The notes below the pieces were generated by a model. It was not told where the DNA came from, did not search any database, and saw only the letters and a list, made by a program, of their open reading frames with translations. Below, one piece after another: positions 40,433 through 49,234 of a stretch of DNA of 64,000 bases; within the stretch, counting starts at the first letter, position 1, and each line of letters opens with the position of its first letter. A program made the translations under genes and the position numbers. The DNA comes from Methylophilus sp. 42 (GTDB lineage: Bacteria; Pseudomonadota; Gammaproteobacteria; Burkholderiales; Methylophilaceae): contig NZ_KB913031.1 of the NCBI RefSeq assembly GCF_000384155.1, forward strand, positions 372,001 to 436,000. Reading direction: 5' to 3'.

Positions 40433-40719
40433 AAGTCAGTTAACGGAAATAAAATGTCAATTCTGTAGTGGTATGTGCGTTATATCGCCTTAGGCGCAGT
40501 ATTTATTCAAATTAGATGGCTGATCGGTCAACATCGATAAAATCTAAAATATATTATCGTAAATGCTCTTTACATTGCTTACATTAAACGCTTTTACATA
40601 GCGAATGACAAGACGCAATCAAGCGTAGTTCGAAGAAAAGCGGTGTTTGTAAGCTGGTTGTCAGTTTTGAGTGCACCAAGTTGGTGCGTGCGTTTGCGCT
40701 GTTTTGGAGATGATCACTT
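40433..40719. other. Gene-free AT-rich segment with a palindrome
   Basis: This is an AT-rich intergenic stretch with no convincing open reading frame. It holds the perfect palindrome GCACCAA-G-TTGGTGC at 40673-40687, which could be an operator. It precedes the first structured repeat copy. The promoter of the minus-strand gene at 40432 must lie near its left end. Confidence 0.45.
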
Positions 40720-41019
40720 ACTTTTTCGCCTTTTTGGCGAGTTACTTTTCTTTGCTTGCCCAAAGCGAAGACTATTCTATGATTGATCTATTTCGCCTCT
40801 CGGCGACCATTCTTTCTTATGCTTGTCCATAAGAAAGAAGGCAAAGAACAAGACACCCCAGCTTCCGCTTGATTCCTGTGCTACTCGGTTTGTCGGGCGC
40901 CCATCGAAACTCGCCCTGACAAGCCACACAAGGCGTGGCTTGTTGCGGAACTCGGACAGCCGATGGCCGAAAACTCCCGCCAACCCTGCGTTGCTCGGCG
41001 CGGCAGATGGGGGCCCCCA
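40720..41019 (-). repeat. Structured intergenic element, copy A
   Basis: A 300-bp copy of the dispersed element. Left to right: hairpin TTCGCC/GGCGA (40724-40740), stem ending in loop CTTGCC, a second TCGCC/GGCGA hairpin, a perfect 12-bp stem TTCTTTCTTATG/CATAAGAAAGAA with loop CTTGTC (40810-40839), then a 9-bp stem ACAAGCCAC/GTGGCTTGT (40919-40943) and a GC-rich end 'CTCGGCGCGGCAGATGGGGG'. The end module is doubled relative to the other copies. It faces copy B in opposite orientation, 105 bp apart. Confidence 0.8.
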
Positions 41020-41124
41020 ACACCAGGTGAGCGCCATCGTTTAGAGGGCTTAATAAAAGAATCCGGTTTTTGAGTCGTTCAGATTTCGACAATGTCAGTT
41101 TGGTGAGATAAATCCCATTCCATC

Positions 41125-41345
41125 ACGCTGAGTAGCGGAGACAAAGTGGGAGTAGTCGGCCATCGGCTGTTCGAGTTCCGCGGTGGCTTGCGGGTTGTGC
41201 AAGCCGCTAGGGCGAGTTTCGATGGACGCCCACTTTGTTGAGCAACGCAAGGAAGCCGTAAGGCCGTGATGGCTGGGTGCCCTCTTCTTTGGTTACTTTC
41301 TGAGGGGCAAGCATCAGAAAGTAACTCGCCAACAAGGCGAAAAGA
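41125..41345 (+). repeat. Structured intergenic element, copy B
   Basis: The copy inverted relative to A. It contains GAGTAGCGGAG near the inner end, the stem GGCTTGC/GCAAGCC (41185-41205), a perfect 12-bp stem GTTACTTTCTGA/TCAGAAAGTAAC with a loop containing GCAAG (41292-41325), and TCGCC/GGCGA at the outer end. Stem sequences differ from those of A, but the pairings and the loop are kept. The rest of 41020-41124 and 41346-41397 holds no gene. Confidence 0.8.
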
Positions 41346-41397
41346 ATCTGTATTAAGCAGCTAAAAGCTATTTAATACAAATTTAGTTCCAGCATGG

Positions 41398-42138
41398 CTA
41401 AAACCCCAGATGCGGTCGCAGATAAGTTAACACGATGGGCAAACCTATCGCGCTGATCACACCATTCAGCCCCATCGCCATGCTGGCAAATACCCCGGCT
41501 TCTTCGTTGACACTAAAGGCGCGCGTAATACCCAGCCCATGTGCGCCGACGCCAATCGCTGTGCCGCGTATCCACCATTGATGTACTTTGACTGCGTTGA
41601 GGATGTAGGGCGCCAGAATCGCGCCCAGCATGCCGGTAATGACGGTAAACACGGCGGTCAGTGTCGGTGACACACTTAGCCGTTCGGCAATGCCCATGGC
41701 AATCGGTGCCGTGACGGATTTGGCATACATGCTGCCGACAATGTTATCTGATGCCCCCATCCATTTGGCGATAGCCACAGCACTGGCGATCGAGACTGTG
41801 CTGCCGACGGTCAAGGCCACCCAAATATGAAAAATCTTGCCCTGCATGCGCTTGAAGCCGTTGTAAATCGGCACTGCCAACGCGACCGTTGCCGTGCCCA
41901 GTAAAAAATGTACAAACTGGGCGCCTTCAAAATACTTTTCATACGGCATGTCCATTAACGCGATGGCCAGGCAGGTCAGAATGACCGAAATCGCCACCGG
42001 GTTGACCAGTGGATGCCGTTTGGCGCGCACATACAGCAGGTAACCTAACTGGTAAGTCGCCAATGTAATAATCAACGCAAACAGCGGGTCACCAGAAAGA
42101 TAGACCCATATTTCGGAAATCGGGATGCGCTTATTCAT
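41398..42138 (-). CDS. lrgB: LrgB family membrane protein
   Basis: A 246-aa integral membrane protein with about seven or eight segments and LrgB motifs ('LLGTATVALAVPIYNGFKRM', 'SVTAPIAMGIAERLSVSPTL', 'GTAIGVGAHGLGITRAFSVN'). LrgB works with LrgA, a holin-like protein, in control of autolysis or in pyruvate/short-chain acid transport. I start at ATG 42138, which overlaps the lrgA stop by 8 bp, as expected for this pair. An upstream in-frame start at 42225 would lie wholly inside lrgA. Confidence 0.93.
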   Translation of the reverse strand: MNKRIPISEIWVYLSGDPLFALIITLATYQLGYLLYVRAKRHPLVNPVAISVILTCLAIALMDMPYEKYFEGAQFVHFLLGTATVALAVPIYNGFKRMQGKIFHIWVALTVGSTVSIASAVAIAKWMGASDNIVGSMYAKSVTAPIAMGIAERLSVSPTLTAVFTVITGMLGAILAPYILNAVKVHQWWIRGTAIGVGAHGLGITRAFSVNEEAGVFASMAMGLNGVISAIGLPIVLTYLRPHLGF

Positions 42139-42517
42139 GGCGATGTCCTTTATGCATCGTGATGTGTTTATTGCGCTTGAGCGAAAAGTACCAGAACACT
42201 TTAAGCACCAGCGCGGTGACAGCAATCGTCAGAATCACACTAACCAGCAAGGCGGTGCTGACGGCCAGCGCATGCGTTTGTAGTTCCGGTAAAAACAGCA
42301 ATACGCCGACCGATGCCGGCACAAACAGCAAGCCCAGATGCTGGCGGAAACTGTCTGCGACCAGCGCCAGGTCGCTATCCACCTGTTTTCTTAAGCATAA
42401 AAATGCCAATAGCAACAGCAGGCCAAGCACCGGGCCTGGAATGCCGGGTAAAAAGAATTTACTCAGCAGCTCGCCCAGGCCTTGCCACAAAAAGAGTTGA
42501 ACCAAACCTGATATCAT
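42131..42517 (-). CDS. lrgA: LrgA/CidA holin-like protein
   Basis: A 128-aa protein with four membrane segments and the LrgA signature 'LPGIPGPVLGLLLLLAFL' followed by 'RQHLGLLFVPASVGVL'. The C-terminus is basic and His-rich. CidA/LrgA proteins oligomerise like holins and partner LrgB, whose gene overlaps its end. The gene is divergent from DUF2490, 78 bp away. Confidence 0.9.
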   Translation of the reverse strand: MISGLVQLFLWQGLGELLSKFFLPGIPGPVLGLLLLLAFLCLRKQVDSDLALVADSFRQHLGLLFVPASVGVLLFLPELQTHALAVSTALLVSVILTIAVTALVLKVFWYFSLKRNKHITMHKGHRHE

Positions 42518-42595
42518 GCAGTCCCCTCAGATGCCCAGGCGGGCGGACTACCGCTCATATTGATGCCTGGAATTATTGATACATAGAATGCCGCG

Positions 42596-43303
42596 ATGTT
42601 AATGTCATTTTTCCGATTCGACTATATTTTTTTGAGCCGTGTTTTTTTCATATTCGCCGTATGTGGGCTGCCGCAAGCCATGGCCGACACCGAAGAAGAT
42701 GGCCGTTACTGGTTTAGCATCTACACCCAGGGCAAATTACCGGCAGAAAATTTTTACTGGAGCATGGATACGCATCCGCGCTGGCGCAACGAAGGCCAGC
42801 ATTTTGATCAATTGATCCTGCGGCCATCGGTGTTTTATAAGTTCAATCCCAAGGCCAGCGTCTGGCTGGGCTATGACACCATTATCAGCCATCCGCCCGG
42901 CCAGTCGTCGCAGCGCGAAAACCGGCTATGGGAGCAGTTTCAGTATCAGTTTGATGCTGTCGCCAATGTGACTTTCACCAGCCGCACGCGCTTTGAGCAG
43001 CGGCGGCGTGAAGACTTCCAGGATGTTGGTCATCGCTTGCGGCAGATGGTGCGCGCAACCATGCCCTTGCCAGTGCATCCCAAATTATCGCTGGTGATGT
43101 TTGACGAGTTGTTTATTAACCTGAACCAGACTGAGTGGGGTGCGCACCGTGGCATCGATCAAAACCGCTTGTTTATCGGTGCCAATTGGAAGTTCAGTGA
43201 TTTCTCCAATCTCGAAACGGGCTATCTGCATCAGTACATCAACACGCGCAGCGTTGATCGCGAAAATCATGTGCTGATGACTACTGTGCGCTTTAACTTC
43301 TAG
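42596..43303 (+). CDS. DUF2490 family exported beta-strand protein
   Basis: A 235-aa protein with a signal peptide (about 1-30, QAMA end). The mature part has alternating amphipathic strands ('RYWFSIYTQGKL', 'VWLGYDTIISHPP', 'WEQFQYQFDAVANVTFTSRT') and ends in a C-terminal Phe (VRFNF), as outer-membrane barrels do. DUF2490 proteins are predicted small outer-membrane barrels of unknown role. ATG 42602 is another possible start. It is followed within 83 bp by metH. Confidence 0.8.
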   Translation: MLMSFFRFDYIFLSRVFFIFAVCGLPQAMADTEEDGRYWFSIYTQGKLPAENFYWSMDTHPRWRNEGQHFDQLILRPSVFYKFNPKASVWLGYDTIISHPPGQSSQRENRLWEQFQYQFDAVANVTFTSRTRFEQRRREDFQDVGHRLRQMVRATMPLPVHPKLSLVMFDELFINLNQTEWGAHRGIDQNRLFIGANWKFSDFSNLETGYLHQYINTRSVDRENHVLMTTVRFNF

Positions 43304-43385
43304 GCCTTGCGTTGCCTCGGCATCGTTTGCCGGGCTGCGTGGCGCCTTGTGATAAAATATCGCTTTTGTTTTCAAGTTGATACGC

Positions 43386-46300
43386 ATGCCGCAACTGCCC
43401 ATCTCCGCCACTGAACAATGGTTACGTGACGCGCTTTCCAAGCGCATCCTGATTCTGGATGGCGCAATGGGCACCATGATTCAGCAATACAAGCTGACCG
43501 AGGCTGATTATCGCGGGGCGCGTTTCAAAGACTTTCAAGGGCCGCCAGGCGAGCGCGAGTTGTTCGTCAAAGGCAACAACGAGCTGCTGACGCTGACACA
43601 GCCACAGGTCATCCAAGAAATCCACGAAAAATACCTGGCGGCTGGGGCCGATATCATCGAAACCAACACCTTTGGTGCCACCAGCGTCGCGCAAGACGAT
43701 TACCATATGGCGCATCTGGTGTACGAGATGAACGTTGAATCCGCCAAGTTAGCCAAAGCTGCCTGCGTCAAATACAGCACACCGGACAAACCGCGTTTCG
43801 TGGCGGGCGCATTAGGCCCCACGCCGAAAACGGCGTCTATTTCACCGGATGTGAATGACCCTGCCGCACGTAATGTCAGTTTTGACCAGCTGGTAACTTC
43901 TTACCTGGAGCAAATCCGCGGCCTGGTCGACGGTGGCGCCGATATCCTGATGGTGGAAACCATTTTCGATACGCTCAACTGTAAAGCGGCGTTGTTTGCG
44001 ATTGAGACCTTTTTTGACGAGCAGGGCAAAACCTGGCCGATCATGATTTCCGGTACGGTGACCGATGCTTCTGGCCGTATCCTGTCTGGCCAGACCGTGA
44101 CCGCCTTCTGGCACTCGGTACGTCATGTGAAACCGCTGACTGTCGGTTTGAACTGTGCTCTCGGTGCGACACTGATGCGTCCTTATGCTGAAGAACTGAG
44201 CAAAGTGGCCGATACCTTTGTTTGTATCTACCCCAACGCCGGTTTGCCTAACCCGATGTCTGATACCGGCTTTGATGAAACGCCTGATGTGACTTCCAGC
44301 CTGGTCAAAGAGTTTGCAGACAGCGGTTTTATCAATATTGCCGGGGGCTGTTGCGGCACCACGCCAGACCATATCAACGCGATTTACAACGCGATTAAAG
44401 TCTTGCCGCCGCGTCAGGTGCCTACTCTGCCGATCACGACCAAACTGTCTGGTTTAGAGCCATTTATCATTGATGAAAGCTCGCTATACGTCAACGTCGG
44501 CGAGCGGACCAACGTCACCGGGTCCAAAGCGTTTGCGCGCATGATCATCAACGAGCAATACGAAGAAGCGCTGAGCGTGGCACGCCAGCAGGTAGAAAAC
44601 GGCGCGCAAGTGATCGACATCAACATGGACGAAGGCATGCTGGATGCGGTCAAGGCCATGACACACTTCCTCAATCTGGTCGCCTCTGAGCCTGACATTG
44701 CGCGCGTGCCTATCATGATCGACTCCTCCAAATGGGCGGTGATTGAGGCGGGTCTCAAATGTGTGCAGGGCAAGGCCATCGTTAACTCAATTTCGATGAA
44801 AGAAGGCGAAACTGAGTTTTTGCGCCAGGCCAAATTGTGCCAGCGCTATGGCGCCGCGGTAGTGGTGATGGCGTTTGATGAAACCGGTCAGGCCGATACT
44901 TATGCGCGTAAAACTGAGATTTGCAAACGTGCTTACGACTTGCTGGTGGGCACTGGTTTTCCGCCCGAAGACATTATCTTCGACCCGAATATCTTTGCTG
45001 TGGCGACGGGCATTGAAGAGCATAACAACTACGCAGTAGACTTTATCGAAGCCACGCGCTGGATCAAGCAGAATTTACCTTACGCCCGTATTTCCGGCGG
45101 TGTGTCCAACGTCAGCTTTAGCTTCCGAGGTAACGAACCCGCGCGTGAAGCCATCCATACCGTGTTCCTTTACCACGCCATCCAGGCGGGCATGACCATG
45201 GGTATCGTCAATGCTGGCATGGTCGGCGTCTATGACGATATTCCGGCCGAGTTGCGTGAGCGCGTCGAAGACGTGGTGCTCAACCGTGTGGTCGATCCGG
45301 ATAATCCACTGGCCGCAACCGAGCGTATGATCGAAATCGCCGGTACTTTGGTGGCTGGTGGCAAAAAACAGGAAGCCACATTGGCCTGGCGTGGCACGCC
45401 AGAGCAACCGGTGCCAGCCAGCAAGCGCCTGGAATATGCGCTGGTGCATGGTATCACCGACTTTATCGTCGCCGACACTGAAGAAGTGCGCCAGGACATT
45501 ATGAATAAGGGTGGTCGCCCCATTCACGTCATTGAAGGTCCGCTCATGGATGGCATGAATGTGGTCGGTGACTTGTTCGGACAGGGCAAAATGTTTTTGC
45601 CGCAAGTCGTGAAGTCGGCCCGTGTGATGAAGTCCGCCGTGGCGCATTTGATTCCGTTTATCGAGGAAGAAAAAGCCGCTGAAGAGCGCCGTACTGGTTT
45701 GGTTGCCAAACCTAAAGGCAAGGTGGTGATTGCTACCGTTAAAGGCGATGTGCACGATATCGGCAAAAACATCGTCTCCGTCGTGTTGCAGTGCAACAAC
45801 TTCGAAGTGGTGAATATGGGCGTGATGGTGCCCGCCGCTGAAATCCTGGCCATGGCTAAAGCCGAAAATGCCGATATCATTGGCTTGAGCGGCCTGATTA
45901 CACCGTCACTGGAAGAAATGGCCTATATCGCCAAAGAAATGCAGCGCGACCCGCATTTTGTCGAAAACCAGACGCCGTTACTGATTGGCGGCGCAACGAC
46001 TTCGCGCGCGCATACCGCAGTGAAAATTGCGCCTAATTATGAAGGCCCGGTGATTTATGTGCCGGATGCGTCACGTTCAGTCAGTGTCATGCAAAATCTG
46101 CTGACGCCGGAAACGCGTGGTGCCTATTTGGCCGAGATCCAGGCCGATTACGAAAAAGCGCGCCACCAGCATGCCAATAAAAAAGGCGTGCCGATGTTAA
46201 GCCTGGCCGATGCACGCGCCAATGCGGCCAAAGTCGAATTTACAGGCGACAAGGCGCCGGTGAAGCCCAAATTTATCGGCCGCCGCGTATTCAAAAATAT

Positions 46301-47192
46301 CGACCTGGCACTGATCGCACAATATATCGACTGGGGCCCGTTCTTCCAGACCTGGGATCTGGCCGGTTTTTACCCGGCCATTTTGAAAGACGAGATTGTC
46401 GGCGAAGCGGCGACCAAGGTATTTGCTGAGGCGCAGGTCATGCTGAAGCGCATCATCGATGGCCGTTGGTTAAGTGCTAATGGTGTAATCGCTTTGTACC
46501 CTGCCAATCAGGTCAACAGTGATGATATTGAAATTTATACCGACGAATCCCGCAGCCAGGTTGCGCTGACCTGGTACGGCATGCGCCAGCAAACACAAAA
46601 ACCAGTCATCGACGGCGTAGCCCGTCCCAACCAGTGCCTGGCGGATTTTATCGCGCCTAAAGGGCCATCAAGAAATGAAACTATAGACGATTACATCGGC
46701 CTGTTCGCCGTGACAGCGGGTCTGGGCATGGAAAAGCGTCTGGCGGACTTTGAAAAGAATCATGATGACTACAACGCCATTATGTTCAAATCGCTGGCCG
46801 ACCGCTTGGCCGAAGCCTTTGCCGAATACATGCACGAACGTGTGCGGCAAGACCTGTGGGGATATGCCGCAAGTGAAGCCTTAGATAAAGAAGCACTGAT
46901 TAAAGAACAATATCAAGGCATCCGCCCGGCGCCTGGCTACCCGGCCTGCCCGGATCACACGGTCAAGGAAGATATGTTCAAGGTACTGCAAGCGACTGAA
47001 ATCGACATGTTGCTGACCGACAGTTACGCCATGCTACCAGCCGCCGCGGTGAGTGGTTTTTATTTCGCGCATCCTGAATCCAGGTATTTCAGTGTGGATA
47101 AAATAGGCAATGATCAGCTGGAGGATATGGCGAAACGGCGCAATGTGGATAAGGATTGGCTGGAGCGGTGGTTAGCGCCTAACCTTGGGTAA
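43386..47192 (+). CDS. metH: Cobalamin-dependent methionine synthase
   Basis: A 1268-aa full-length MetH. In order: homocysteine methyltransferase domain with zinc ligands including C322/C323 ('[10 protein letters not shown]'); the pterin-binding domain ('[18 protein letters not shown]'); the cap and B12 domain with the cobalt-ligand H790 in DVHDIGKNI; and the SAM-binding reactivation domain ('[13 protein letters not shown]'). It moves a methyl group from methyltetrahydrofolate to homocysteine and needs vitamin B12. ATG 43386 is used; an in-frame TTG lies at 43377. No B12 or SAM riboswitch is visible in the 82-bp upstream gap. Confidence 0.97.
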
Positions 47193-47216
47193 TGGGTTTG
47201 TGGGTTGAGCGAGAAG

Positions 47217-47242
47217 GGCGTACTGAGAGGTACGCCTTTTTT
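47217..47242 (+). terminator. Rho-independent terminator of metH
   Basis: The stem GGCGTAC/GTACGCC with a 6-nt loop is followed by TTTTTTG. It begins 25 bp after the metH stop. Confidence 0.9.
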
Positions 47243-47299
47243 GTTTTTTGATGCGCGGGAAAGGTAATTTTTCGGTTTGTGTGTTTATGTGGCGTTTTG

Positions 47300-47525
47300 T
47301 TTCGCCTTTTCGGCGAGTTACTTTTCTTTGCTTGCACAAAGAATAAGTAACCAAAAGAAAGTGCACCCTAGCTTCCGCTTGTTTCCTGCGTTGCTCGCCA
47401 AAATAAGCGGTCACGAAACTCAACCTGGTAGCTCACATACAACGTGAGCTACTGCGGGATTCGGACAGTCGCTCCCTTTCTCCTTATTTTGCCTGTGCTA
47501 CTCGGCGCGGCAGATAGGGGCCCGA
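47300..47525 (-). repeat. Structured intergenic element, copy C
   Basis: Same orientation as copy A. It shows TTCGCC/GGCGA at the outer end (47301-47316), a 14-bp stem GTTACTTTTCTTTG/CAAAGAA-T-AAGTAAC with loop CTTGCA and one bulge (47317-47351), and a perfect 9-bp stem GTAGCTCAC/GTGAGCTAC (47428-47452). The inner end is again CTCGGCGCGGCAGATAGGGG. The stem at 47428 has a quite different sequence from the matching stem in A but pairs perfectly. Confidence 0.8.
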
Positions 47526-47685
47526 TTAAACCCCGCCACGATGAGGCGTTTGTTAGGCATATTACGTGGAGGGCGCTGGGCTGTTGTTGCTAGACTTAAC
47601 AACGTATTGTTTTTGTTTTTTTGCGCTGGTTGAGCGGCATGTGATGTAAAAAGATTCACGTAAGTTAAGGGCGTGTGGTTTTATG

Positions 47686-47911
47686 GGTCCCTATCTGCCG
47701 CGCCGAGTAGCGCAGGCAGCGTGGGAGTCTTCGGCCAGCGGCTGTTCGAGTTCCGCGGTGGCTTGCGGAGTTTGCAAGCCGCTAGGGCGAGTTTCGTTGG
47801 CCGCCCATGCTGATGAGCAACGCAGGAAACAGGCGGAAGCTAGGGTGTCTTGTTCTTTGCCTTCTTTCTTATGGACAAGCATAAGAAAGAATGGTCGCCG
47901 AAAGGGCGAAA
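47686..47911 (+). repeat. Structured intergenic element, copy D
   Basis: Inverted relative to C and 160 bp from it. It contains GGCTTGC/GCAAGCC (47761-47781), the perfect 12-bp stem TTCTTTCTTATG/CATAAGAAAGAA with loop GACAAG (47862-47891), and TCGCC/GGCGA at the outer end. C and D together repeat the head-to-head arrangement of A and B. The rest of 47243-47968 shows no gene. Confidence 0.8.
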
Positions 47912-47968
47912 TAAATCGCCACAATAACGAATGTGTATTGAAGTGCTCATCGATACTTCGCTAAAGAA

Positions 47969-49234
47969 TTACTTTTTTAATAGCGGCTCAATTGCTACCA
48001 TCAGCCTCTGTGTCGTCCCTCTATGCTGCAACGTAAACCCCTTCGCCGCTTGCGCCATTGTCGTCACTTTCATCTTATCCGCCGCCAGCGTGGCAATCAT
48101 GTCATGCAGCTCAGCCACATCACTTAACTGCACAGCCGAATCTGCTAGCACAGCCGCTTGCGTCACCTGCGCAAAATTAAACATATTCGGCCCCAATATC
48201 GTTGGTACACCCATGGCCGCTGCTTCAATCAGGTTCTGCCCACCCAATGGCTGCAAGCTGCCACCCATCACCGCGAAATCACTCGCTGCGTAATAGGTAT
48301 ACATTTCACCCATACTATTGCCCAGCACCACCTGTACATCGCCATTCAAGGGCTGCACCAGCTCCGTACGCAATACATAGCGCAGGCCGCGTGCCTTGAG
48401 CAGCGATTCGACTTCAGCAAAGCGTTGCGGGTGGCGTGGCACTAACAGCGTGAGCACGTCCGTGCCTTGCACGGCATCGAGGATTAATGACTCTTCACCC
48501 TCACGCGTACTGGCAGCCATGAAGACTGTGCGATCTTTACCCAATAGCTGGCGTAATGCTGCACCTTTGGCCGCGCTGTCTTCTGGCGGCGTGACGTCAA
48601 ATTTTAAATTGCCACAGATGACCGGATGTTTTGCACCCAGCGTTTGCAGGCGTTCGGCATCGGCGGCGGTTTGTGCGGCGACCAGTGATAGTTGTTGCAG
48701 GCCACGGCGCGTCAGGCTGCCGAGTCTTGCGTAGCCAGCGGCCGATTTGGGTGAGAGGCGCGCACTCAGTAGCGCCATGGGAATATTCAAACGCGTGGCC
48801 TGGTCGATGGCATGGAACCATAGTTCGGTTTCCATTAATAGGCCTAATGAAGGCTTGAAGTATGTCAGGAAGCGTTTGGTCGCGCCTGGTGTGTCGACGG
48901 TCAAGTAAGCTTGCAATACGCGGCCACTGGCGATCTCCTGATCAAATAACTGGCGACCAGTCTCACGGCCGGTGGGGGTGCCGTGGGTCATGAGTAATTG
49001 GTGTTGCGGGTAATGTGCCAGCAGCGCATGAATCAGCGGCTGTGTCGCACGTGTTTCACCTACCGAAACACAATGCACCCAAATCAGCGGTGCGTTGACG
49101 GTTTGCGTGTAAAAGCCATAGCGTTCGCCCACATGCTGGCGGTATTCGGGTTGCTTGAGGCCACGCCAGAATAGCTTGAGCGGCAGCAGGGTGGCTACCG
49201 CGAACATGAGCAGGGTATAGACGAATCTTGGCAT
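47969..49234 (-). CDS. waaA: 3-deoxy-D-manno-octulosonic acid (Kdo) transferase
   Basis: A 421-aa membrane-anchored GT30-type glycosyltransferase that adds Kdo to lipid A. The N-terminal segment (about 1-18) is hydrophobic, followed by 'IWVHCVSVGETRATQPLIHAL', the catalytic Glu in 'LLMETELWFHAI', and the donor-site 'GGSLQPLGGQNLIEAAAMGVPTI' split over the C-terminal domain. ATG 49234 gives the family N-terminus; an upstream in-frame start at 49282 is unlikely. It is divergent from nrdJa. Confidence 0.94.
   Translation of the reverse strand: MPRFVYTLLMFAVATLLPLKLFWRGLKQPEYRQHVGERYGFYTQTVNAPLIWVHCVSVGETRATQPLIHALLAHYPQHQLLMTHGTPTGRETGRQLFDQEIASGRVLQAYLTVDTPGATKRFLTYFKPSLGLLMETELWFHAIDQATRLNIPMALLSARLSPKSAAGYARLGSLTRRGLQQLSLVAAQTAADAERLQTLGAKHPVICGNLKFDVTPPEDSAAKGAALRQLLGKDRTVFMAASTREGEESLILDAVQGTDVLTLLVPRHPQRFAEVESLLKARGLRYVLRTELVQPLNGDVQVVLGNSMGEMYTYYAASDFAVMGGSLQPLGGQNLIEAAAMGVPTILGPNMFNFAQVTQAAVLADSAVQLSDVAELHDMIATLAADKMKVTTMAQAAKGFTLQHRGTTQRLMVAIEPLLKK

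Follow-up and report, generated by a model that had tools for sequence, protein, structure and literature searches.

Which kind of element leaves behind stretches of DNA whose stems change in sequence while their pairing persists? The question is raised by the 64,000-nt window of Methylophilus sp. 42 analysed here, taken from a single-contig genome of 2.97 Mb, in which an earlier note had described a dispersed structured element in four copies, A to D, with covarying stems and a conserved CTTG-type loop. Our analysis favours, with a probability of roughly 60%, the reading that these features are fixed descendants of non-coding repeats of the miniature inverted-repeat transposable element (MITE) type, that is, of non-autonomous DNA transposons, with a conserved folded core. 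A pseudoknotted form of this core occurs in other bacteria, once inside a small transposon, and the elements therefore resemble a mobile repeat of long standing whose fold is uncommonly well preserved.

All four copies and their named stems were located within a few bases of where they had been placed. The count of four stands for the copies and not for the elements, as these are really two, A with B and C with D, each an inverted pair of halves: element 1, A(+)/B(-), occupies 40.79-41.34 kb and element 2, C(+)/D(-), 47.30-47.91 kb. The layout is a half of about 230 nt, a centre of 95 or 162 nt, and a second half inverted. From the outer end inward, a half is composed of a mini-hairpin (TTTCGCC..GGCGA), stem-loop 1 (SL1) with its CTTG loop, an A-rich stretch, a pseudoknot strand and the 5' side of stem P1, followed by a 13-mer, CCTGYGYTRCTCG, stems P2 and P3, a second 13-mer and the 3' side of P1, with invariant AACTC and TCGRACAG stretches between the inner stems P2 and P3. 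The CTTGC or CTTGT ascribed to each loop is present in all four when read inward from the outer end, as are the second stems (ACAAGCCAC in A, GTAGCTCAC in C, GGCTTGC in B and D). Inside the two elements the reading frames are short mechanical ones of at most 93 amino acids. Degenerate inverted motifs, AAGGTNATTCTTT, are found outside the halves. Allowing one mismatch at most, AAGGTNATTCTTTNG matches 20 places in the genome and its backward pattern 6, and an element is no more than 60 bp away from 13 of the 20; in the genus (here always Methylophilus) the motif is degenerate and absent at some elements.

Searches with A, B and a profile of the halves revealed 30 sites in the same genome, 29 with two inverted halves and one with a single half (L069), with blastn E values for further copies of A reaching 7e-134, far beyond chance. 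The 29 two-halved sites form a multi-copy set without a gene, span 437-630 bp and have centres of 84-100 nt in all cases except C/D, whose centre measures 162 nt. Halves fall into an A type and a B type, assigned, like the gene calls, with our analysis scripts. Among the loci of this genome and its relatives, 72 pairings are A/B or B/A, 15 A/A and one B/B, while 8 include an unassigned half; four further neighbour relations in this survey represent different elements or another order. Three loci (L165 1631-1930, L196 1628-1911, L202 1679-1959) hold compact elements in which the halves overlap and apparently have one common inner hairpin.

The fold itself was examined in 212 halves, obtained from 249 model matches by removing short and N-containing ones and aligned separately as 115 A-type and 97 B-type halves; they come from 13 genus genomes including the present one, with four halves from two other genera. 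Named pairs are complementary in 96.5% of cells for the A type (39 pairs) and 93.6% for the B type (36 pairs), compared with 41-48% and 34-46% when the structure is slid along the alignment and 79% and 81% when columns are shuffled. Changes on both sides of a pair are found at 26 of 39 A-type and 23 of 36 B-type pairs, against 3-7 and 5-12 in slid structures. The comparison with slid versions favours the real structure, which was derived from these very alignments; with pairing kept far above both controls in this larger alignment, the compensatory change around fixed loops that the earlier note had read from four copies is borne out. The covariation within the genus reflects few module types moved blockwise, so that independent events are fewer than cells, and template-switch correction of imperfect palindromes could also yield paired changes in simple hairpins.

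These stems are joined by a covarying pseudoknot, absent from the first account, in which the SL1 loop pairs with a strand downstream of it. Among 31 distinct loop/partner combinations in the aligned halves, a count that omits four halves without a readable loop, the mean longest complement is 4.06, whereas shuffled partners give 3.34 (sd 0.14, maximum 3.74 of 500); against the pseudoknot, 31 halves with two common combinations reach only three consecutive base pairs. A wider set was assembled with an SL1 pattern from GTDB contigs (at least 117 stretches, 80 fetched; 75 of 82 pattern matches were of usable length). The incomplete listing of this set makes it silent on true frequency, and SL1 pairing is no evidence here, being forced by the search pattern, while the pseudoknot and the inner parts are unforced. 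Among the matches listed, a perfect 5-mer complement is present in 33 of 54 distinct combinations, compared with 8.9 after shuffling (maximum 15 of 300); in a longer search stretch, 56 of the 75 units have a perfect 5-mer, 17 match at four of five positions and two at three, the shuffle control applying to the shorter stretch only.

The core is not confined to the genus. Used as a DNA query, A finds matches in 20 of the 22 genomes of the genus, in 4 of 15 from elsewhere in the family and in none of 24 from the rest of the order. The wide set, again among the matches listed, includes Methylobacter, Methylomonas, Methylotenera, Thiobacillus, Comamonadaceae, Xanthomonas, Lysobacter, Rheinheimera, Aggregatibacter, Psychromonas and others. 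A suspected likeness to repeats of other betaproteobacteria was thus right but too narrow, gammaproteobacteria being represented as well. The order of hairpin, SL1 and pseudoknot strand is found again in these matches, with two kinds of inner domain distinguishable by eye. Units are single in Methylobacter loci, paired inward in Thiobacillus, Aggregatibacter, Lysobacter and others, and paired outward in several Xanthomonas loci, so the inverted pair is not universal. Plasmids and phages gave no match to the element.

A MITE form of the core is present in one relative. In Methylobacter tundripaludum SV96 the 14-bp end ACTGATGTTACGCA occurs in 43 exact copies, against 0 for the backward control. 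Five short elements that were read carry ACTGATGTTACGCA terminal inverted repeats at both ends and the same 5-mer on each flank. In three of them, two measuring 321 bp and one 368 bp, the core lies on the plus strand; a fourth, 331 bp long, apparently has it reversed, and the fifth, 106 bp long, is without it. Three 1107-bp elements have the same ends as the core elements, with equal flanks in two (5 and 6 bases) and unequal flanks in the third, and the frame of one of them encodes a 353-amino-acid DDE transposase of the NCBIfam IS701 family (380 bits, cut-off 250). Duplications in the Methylobacter copies measure 5 bp, once 6, at most ends read. As a separate observation, L353 1628-2986 of M. 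tundripaludum holds a second transposase (DUF772/DDE_Tnp_1_6) in a stretch of about 1.9 kb with the same terminal repeats.

The window elements resemble these IS701-type MITEs in being short, non-coding and dispersed in many copies. They differ from the Methylobacter MITE, with its terminal inverted repeats, 5-bp duplications and partner insertion sequence with identical ends, in being inverted doubles, and several observations weigh against MITE descent. No target-site duplication is readable in the genus, and a search of 22 genus genomes for the IS701-type protein, run without a positive control, gave no match. A plain MITE would not predict a long pseudoknotted core common to genera whose outer ends differ (as judged by eye). 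Among the Methylobacter copies, L214 and L275 have damaged ends and some, including one 1107-bp element, are without a clear duplication, and the genus-wide retention of sites could reflect a host function.

Under the MITE reading, a core of about 200-230 nt would fold into a constant array of hairpins, with an H-type pseudoknot closing it. Its ancestor would have spread by transposition, which is supported for the Methylobacter relative of the core and which we infer for the genus of the window. The mobile element would probably have required the fold, either in single-stranded form or as a cruciform. In the genus the elements would persist as inverted doubles that are apparently immobile now, mostly at gene 3' ends and inherited in place, with copies trading modules through homologous recombination or gene conversion, as suggested by mosaics and by an inversion between the window elements. 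The one effect visible in present genomes would be as a break point of rearrangement.

Stability of sites, exchange of modules and the inversion are all observed. Both flanks of an element in this genome are matched for 43 of 46 elements sampled in four relatives, G002, G008, G010 and G020; conversely, 28 of the 30 elements have a two-flank partner in at least one relative, L071 has a one-flank partner, and L070, missed in the flank comparison, is a full pair in 4 of 14 relatives and a partial pair in 2 of 14. The methionine synthase gene metH is matched in 20 genomes, and in 13 of these the fetched stretch includes an element near it (the present genome counted via L056); in G013 it is about 1 kb away and in G021 one half only is seen. 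The seven genomes without it are six more distant ones (71-74% identity) and G007, at a contig end. Orthologous halves of the same type are 0.81 identical, random between-genome pairs 0.76-0.84 and within-genome pairs 0.72-0.89, and 98 of 252 orthologous pairs are of unlike type. Sites are shared and orthologous halves are no closer than random ones, which indicates that place is inherited and sequence exchanged. Two sites of this genome were followed through 14 genomes, with matches in 14 and 13: some are occupied, some have a changed neighbour and two have remnants, by eye, and none showed a clean gap with a duplication.

In the window, G008, G010 and G020, the gene order is RND, MFP, p113, element, lrgB, lrgA, p235, metH, element, waaA, rnr, and G002 has part of it on its shorter contig. 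In G003 and G004 the segment lrgB-lrgA-p235-metH (41100-47700) is inverted relative to both flanks; in G004 a search for p235 gave no match, and additional halves are present at one end. The break points coincide with the element sites, and recombination between the two elements probably caused the inversion.

The 3' ends at which the elements lie raise the possibility of a functional RNA, in which each half would form the 3' untranslated region of the adjacent gene and the inverted pair would serve two convergent genes as an exonuclease barrier, terminator or stability element. We consider this unlikely. In its favour, unpaired motifs are invariant, inverted pairs recur in Thiobacillus and Aggregatibacter, and, among the matches listed, other genera have seven perfect pseudoknot versions (TCGCC/GGCGA, TAGCC/GGCTA, TGTGC/GCACA, GGTGC/GCACC, TGGCC/GGCCA, CGCGC/GCGCG, CCGCC/GGCGG). 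Placement, which counts for the MITE reading too, points the same way, with gene 3' ends and convergent pairs preferred: by our open reading frame calls, 19 of the 30 elements lie between convergent and one between divergent genes, whereas 9 of the window's 42 neighbour pairs are convergent and 8 divergent, and of 87 elements sampled in relatives 55 are convergent, none divergent and 4 lack one neighbour. These sampled elements are mostly at orthologous sites, and their gene contexts are therefore non-independent. In the 19 imperfect pseudoknots among the matches listed, read on the CTTG strand, an internal G-U occurs in 5, an internal A-C in none and an A-C at the end pair in 7; the pseudoknot and its exceptions speak for a single strand, in numbers too few for a decision. 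The strand tests point away from RNA. Mean fold z-scores against dinucleotide shuffles are equal on the two strands (-6.42 and -6.33 for 60 of the 75 wide units, among the matches listed; -3.22 and -3.14 for 40 of the 212 halves), and the inner-to-outer strand had the lower RNA energy in 206 of 212 halves, an apparent strand signal that disappeared against such shuffles. Named pairs in the genus show no excess of G-U over A-C in cells (76 against 223, over half of the A-C cells coming from three columns) or singletons (16 against 22). Unpaired single units have no clear orientation to genes, the outer gene aiming at the unit in 30 of 51 and the inner gene in 23 of 51, and C/D is among the elements lying beyond a terminator-like hairpin of the adjacent gene, at the metH site between gene and element (by eye). 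RNA as what selection sees, one of the two options of the earlier note, is not upheld by these observations.

Symmetric pairing between strands would suit an element that acts on the host as DNA, as a cruciform or as a protein site, for example for a topoisomerase or nucleoid protein, where positive supercoils gather between convergent genes. Bacterial interspersed mosaic elements (BIMEs) have been proposed to act at such places. Convergent placement, genus-wide retention of position and the remnants at the two sites now without an element agree with this idea, which we nevertheless regard as improbable, given that duplex DNA offers no evident role for a pseudoknot in which a loop pairs with a strand downstream of it and that two of the 22 genus genomes have no match to A and three more a single weak one. 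Paired changes could also arise with no selection at all, if template switching corrects imperfect palindromes and conversion homogenises copies. The few module types, swapped blockwise, and the lack of a G-U excess would fit, and yet pseudoknot complementarity and a long-range GTTGC/GCTAC swap lie outside nearby palindromes and the pseudoknot is retained across beta- and gammaproteobacteria, making this explanation very hard to credit. A tentative proposal, which we rate as doubtful, is that the core represents its own class of folded nucleic acid outside Rfam, carried by different beta- and gammaproteobacterial transposons and acting single-stranded, as RNA or DNA, via its pseudoknot, with some hosts, such as the genus of the window, retaining it at gene 3' ends for a task of their own. 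Rfam covariance models gave no match at gathering score in the window or in 10 of the 80 wide-set loci, and none at E up to 1 in 40600-48100.

Correia, ERIC and BOX elements are likewise modular intergenic repeats. The unit of about 230 nt described here is unlike the 20-40 bp of repetitive extragenic palindromic (REP) repeats. REP/BIME repeats with RAYT transposases and TIRtrons are alike in being palindromic, intergenic and often in inverted pairs; REP/BIME repeats lie mostly between unidirectional and convergent genes, and some Y1 transposases have long terminal repeats forming repeat families (PMC3733652). To the extent that 30 fetched Y1 loci of relatives can show, a RAYT/REP origin was rejected for the genus (PF01797): the Y1 gene of this genome bears another repeat, and those 30 loci hold no element except two chance-like matches of 22-24 nt. 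The Y1 gene, in the stretch L111 1313-1951 (around C1:2183188-2183550), is the sole PF01797 Y1 (RAYT-like) gene of the genome and has an inverted GTAG-tagged REP-like repeat, GTAGGGTGGGCAACTAGTTGCCCAC, on its flanks; in G005 and G020 similar repeats accompany the Y1 genes, a family separate from the half elements. The mobile/repeat sequence candidates of a second source, whose candidates number 250, are structured multi-copy motifs with covariation, some by transposase genes and undecided between RNA and DNA form; one of them, MRSC-65-2, has a single long stem with repeated UYCCGG, going by its description there, unlike the several hairpins and pseudoknot found here (PMC11109978). In the open-licence literature, as text without figures or supplements, no description of this repeat family was found. 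Four candidates for gene cargo between halves in relatives were dismissed, three being two ordinary elements each and one two partial ones, and wider gaps at L225 and L252, in other genera, contain small frames only, none transposase-like by eye.

On the usual view, small bacterial transposons need nothing but their ends. Here the interior has been retained as well, covarying pseudoknot included, in several genera, which raises the question of what purpose a fold serves in an element that is non-autonomous. Within the genus, nature has set up an experiment of its own, with some thirty fixed sites that swap sequence and not place, two of them bounding an inversion of metH and its neighbours.

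Table 1. Parts of the two elements, in window coordinates.
Feature	Position	Strand	Details
Extra outer piece before half A	40724..40770	+	mini-hairpin and 5' part of SL1, truncated; nhmmer match, model positions 3-50
Half A	40790..41016	+	A-type, element 1; blastn and profile of halves
SL1 of half A	40810..40839	+	TTCTTTCTTATG/CATAAGAAAGAA
Pseudoknot of half A	40824-40827, 40852-40855		SL1 loop TGTC can pair with GACA
Centre of element 1	41017..41111		95 nt, conserved in part among copies
Half B	41112..41343	-	B-type, inverted, element 1
SL1 of half B	41292..41325	-	GTTACTTTCTGA/TCAGAAAGTAAC
Pseudoknot of half B	41305-41309, 41278-41282		GGGCA with TGCCC (plus-strand letters)
Outer inverted motif	47261..47275	+	AAGGTAATTTTTCGG, left end of element 2
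Half C	47300..47523	+	A-type, element 2
SL1 of half C	~47317..47352	+	GTTACTTTTCTTTG and partner with one-base bulge
Pseudoknot of half C	47333-47337, 47361-47365		loop TGCAC can pair with GTGCA
Centre of element 2	47524..47685		162 nt
Half D	47686..47912	-	A-type, inverted, element 2
SL1 of half D	47862..47891	-	
Pseudoknot of half D	47874-47877, 47846-47849		GACA can pair with TGTC (plus-strand letters)
Outer inverted motif	47960..47975	-	GCTAAAGAATTACTTT, right end of element 2; overlaps stop codon of waaA-like gene

A piece similar to the truncated one before half A occupies the same site in G008, G010 and G020. Among the neighbouring genes, that left of C is metH, with an NCBIfam score above its cut-off, and the one right of D is named waaA, for lipid IV(A) Kdo transferase, with a score of 520 bits, slightly below the cut-off of 524; right of B lie LrgB- and LrgA-like genes with NCBIfam scores under their cut-offs, and the 113- and 235-amino-acid frames (p113 and p235) have no NCBIfam match. 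Just downstream of metH in G004 (L134), GGACGGGGGTTCAATTCCCCC looks by eye like the T arm of a tRNA or tmRNA gene and is perhaps an integration remnant.

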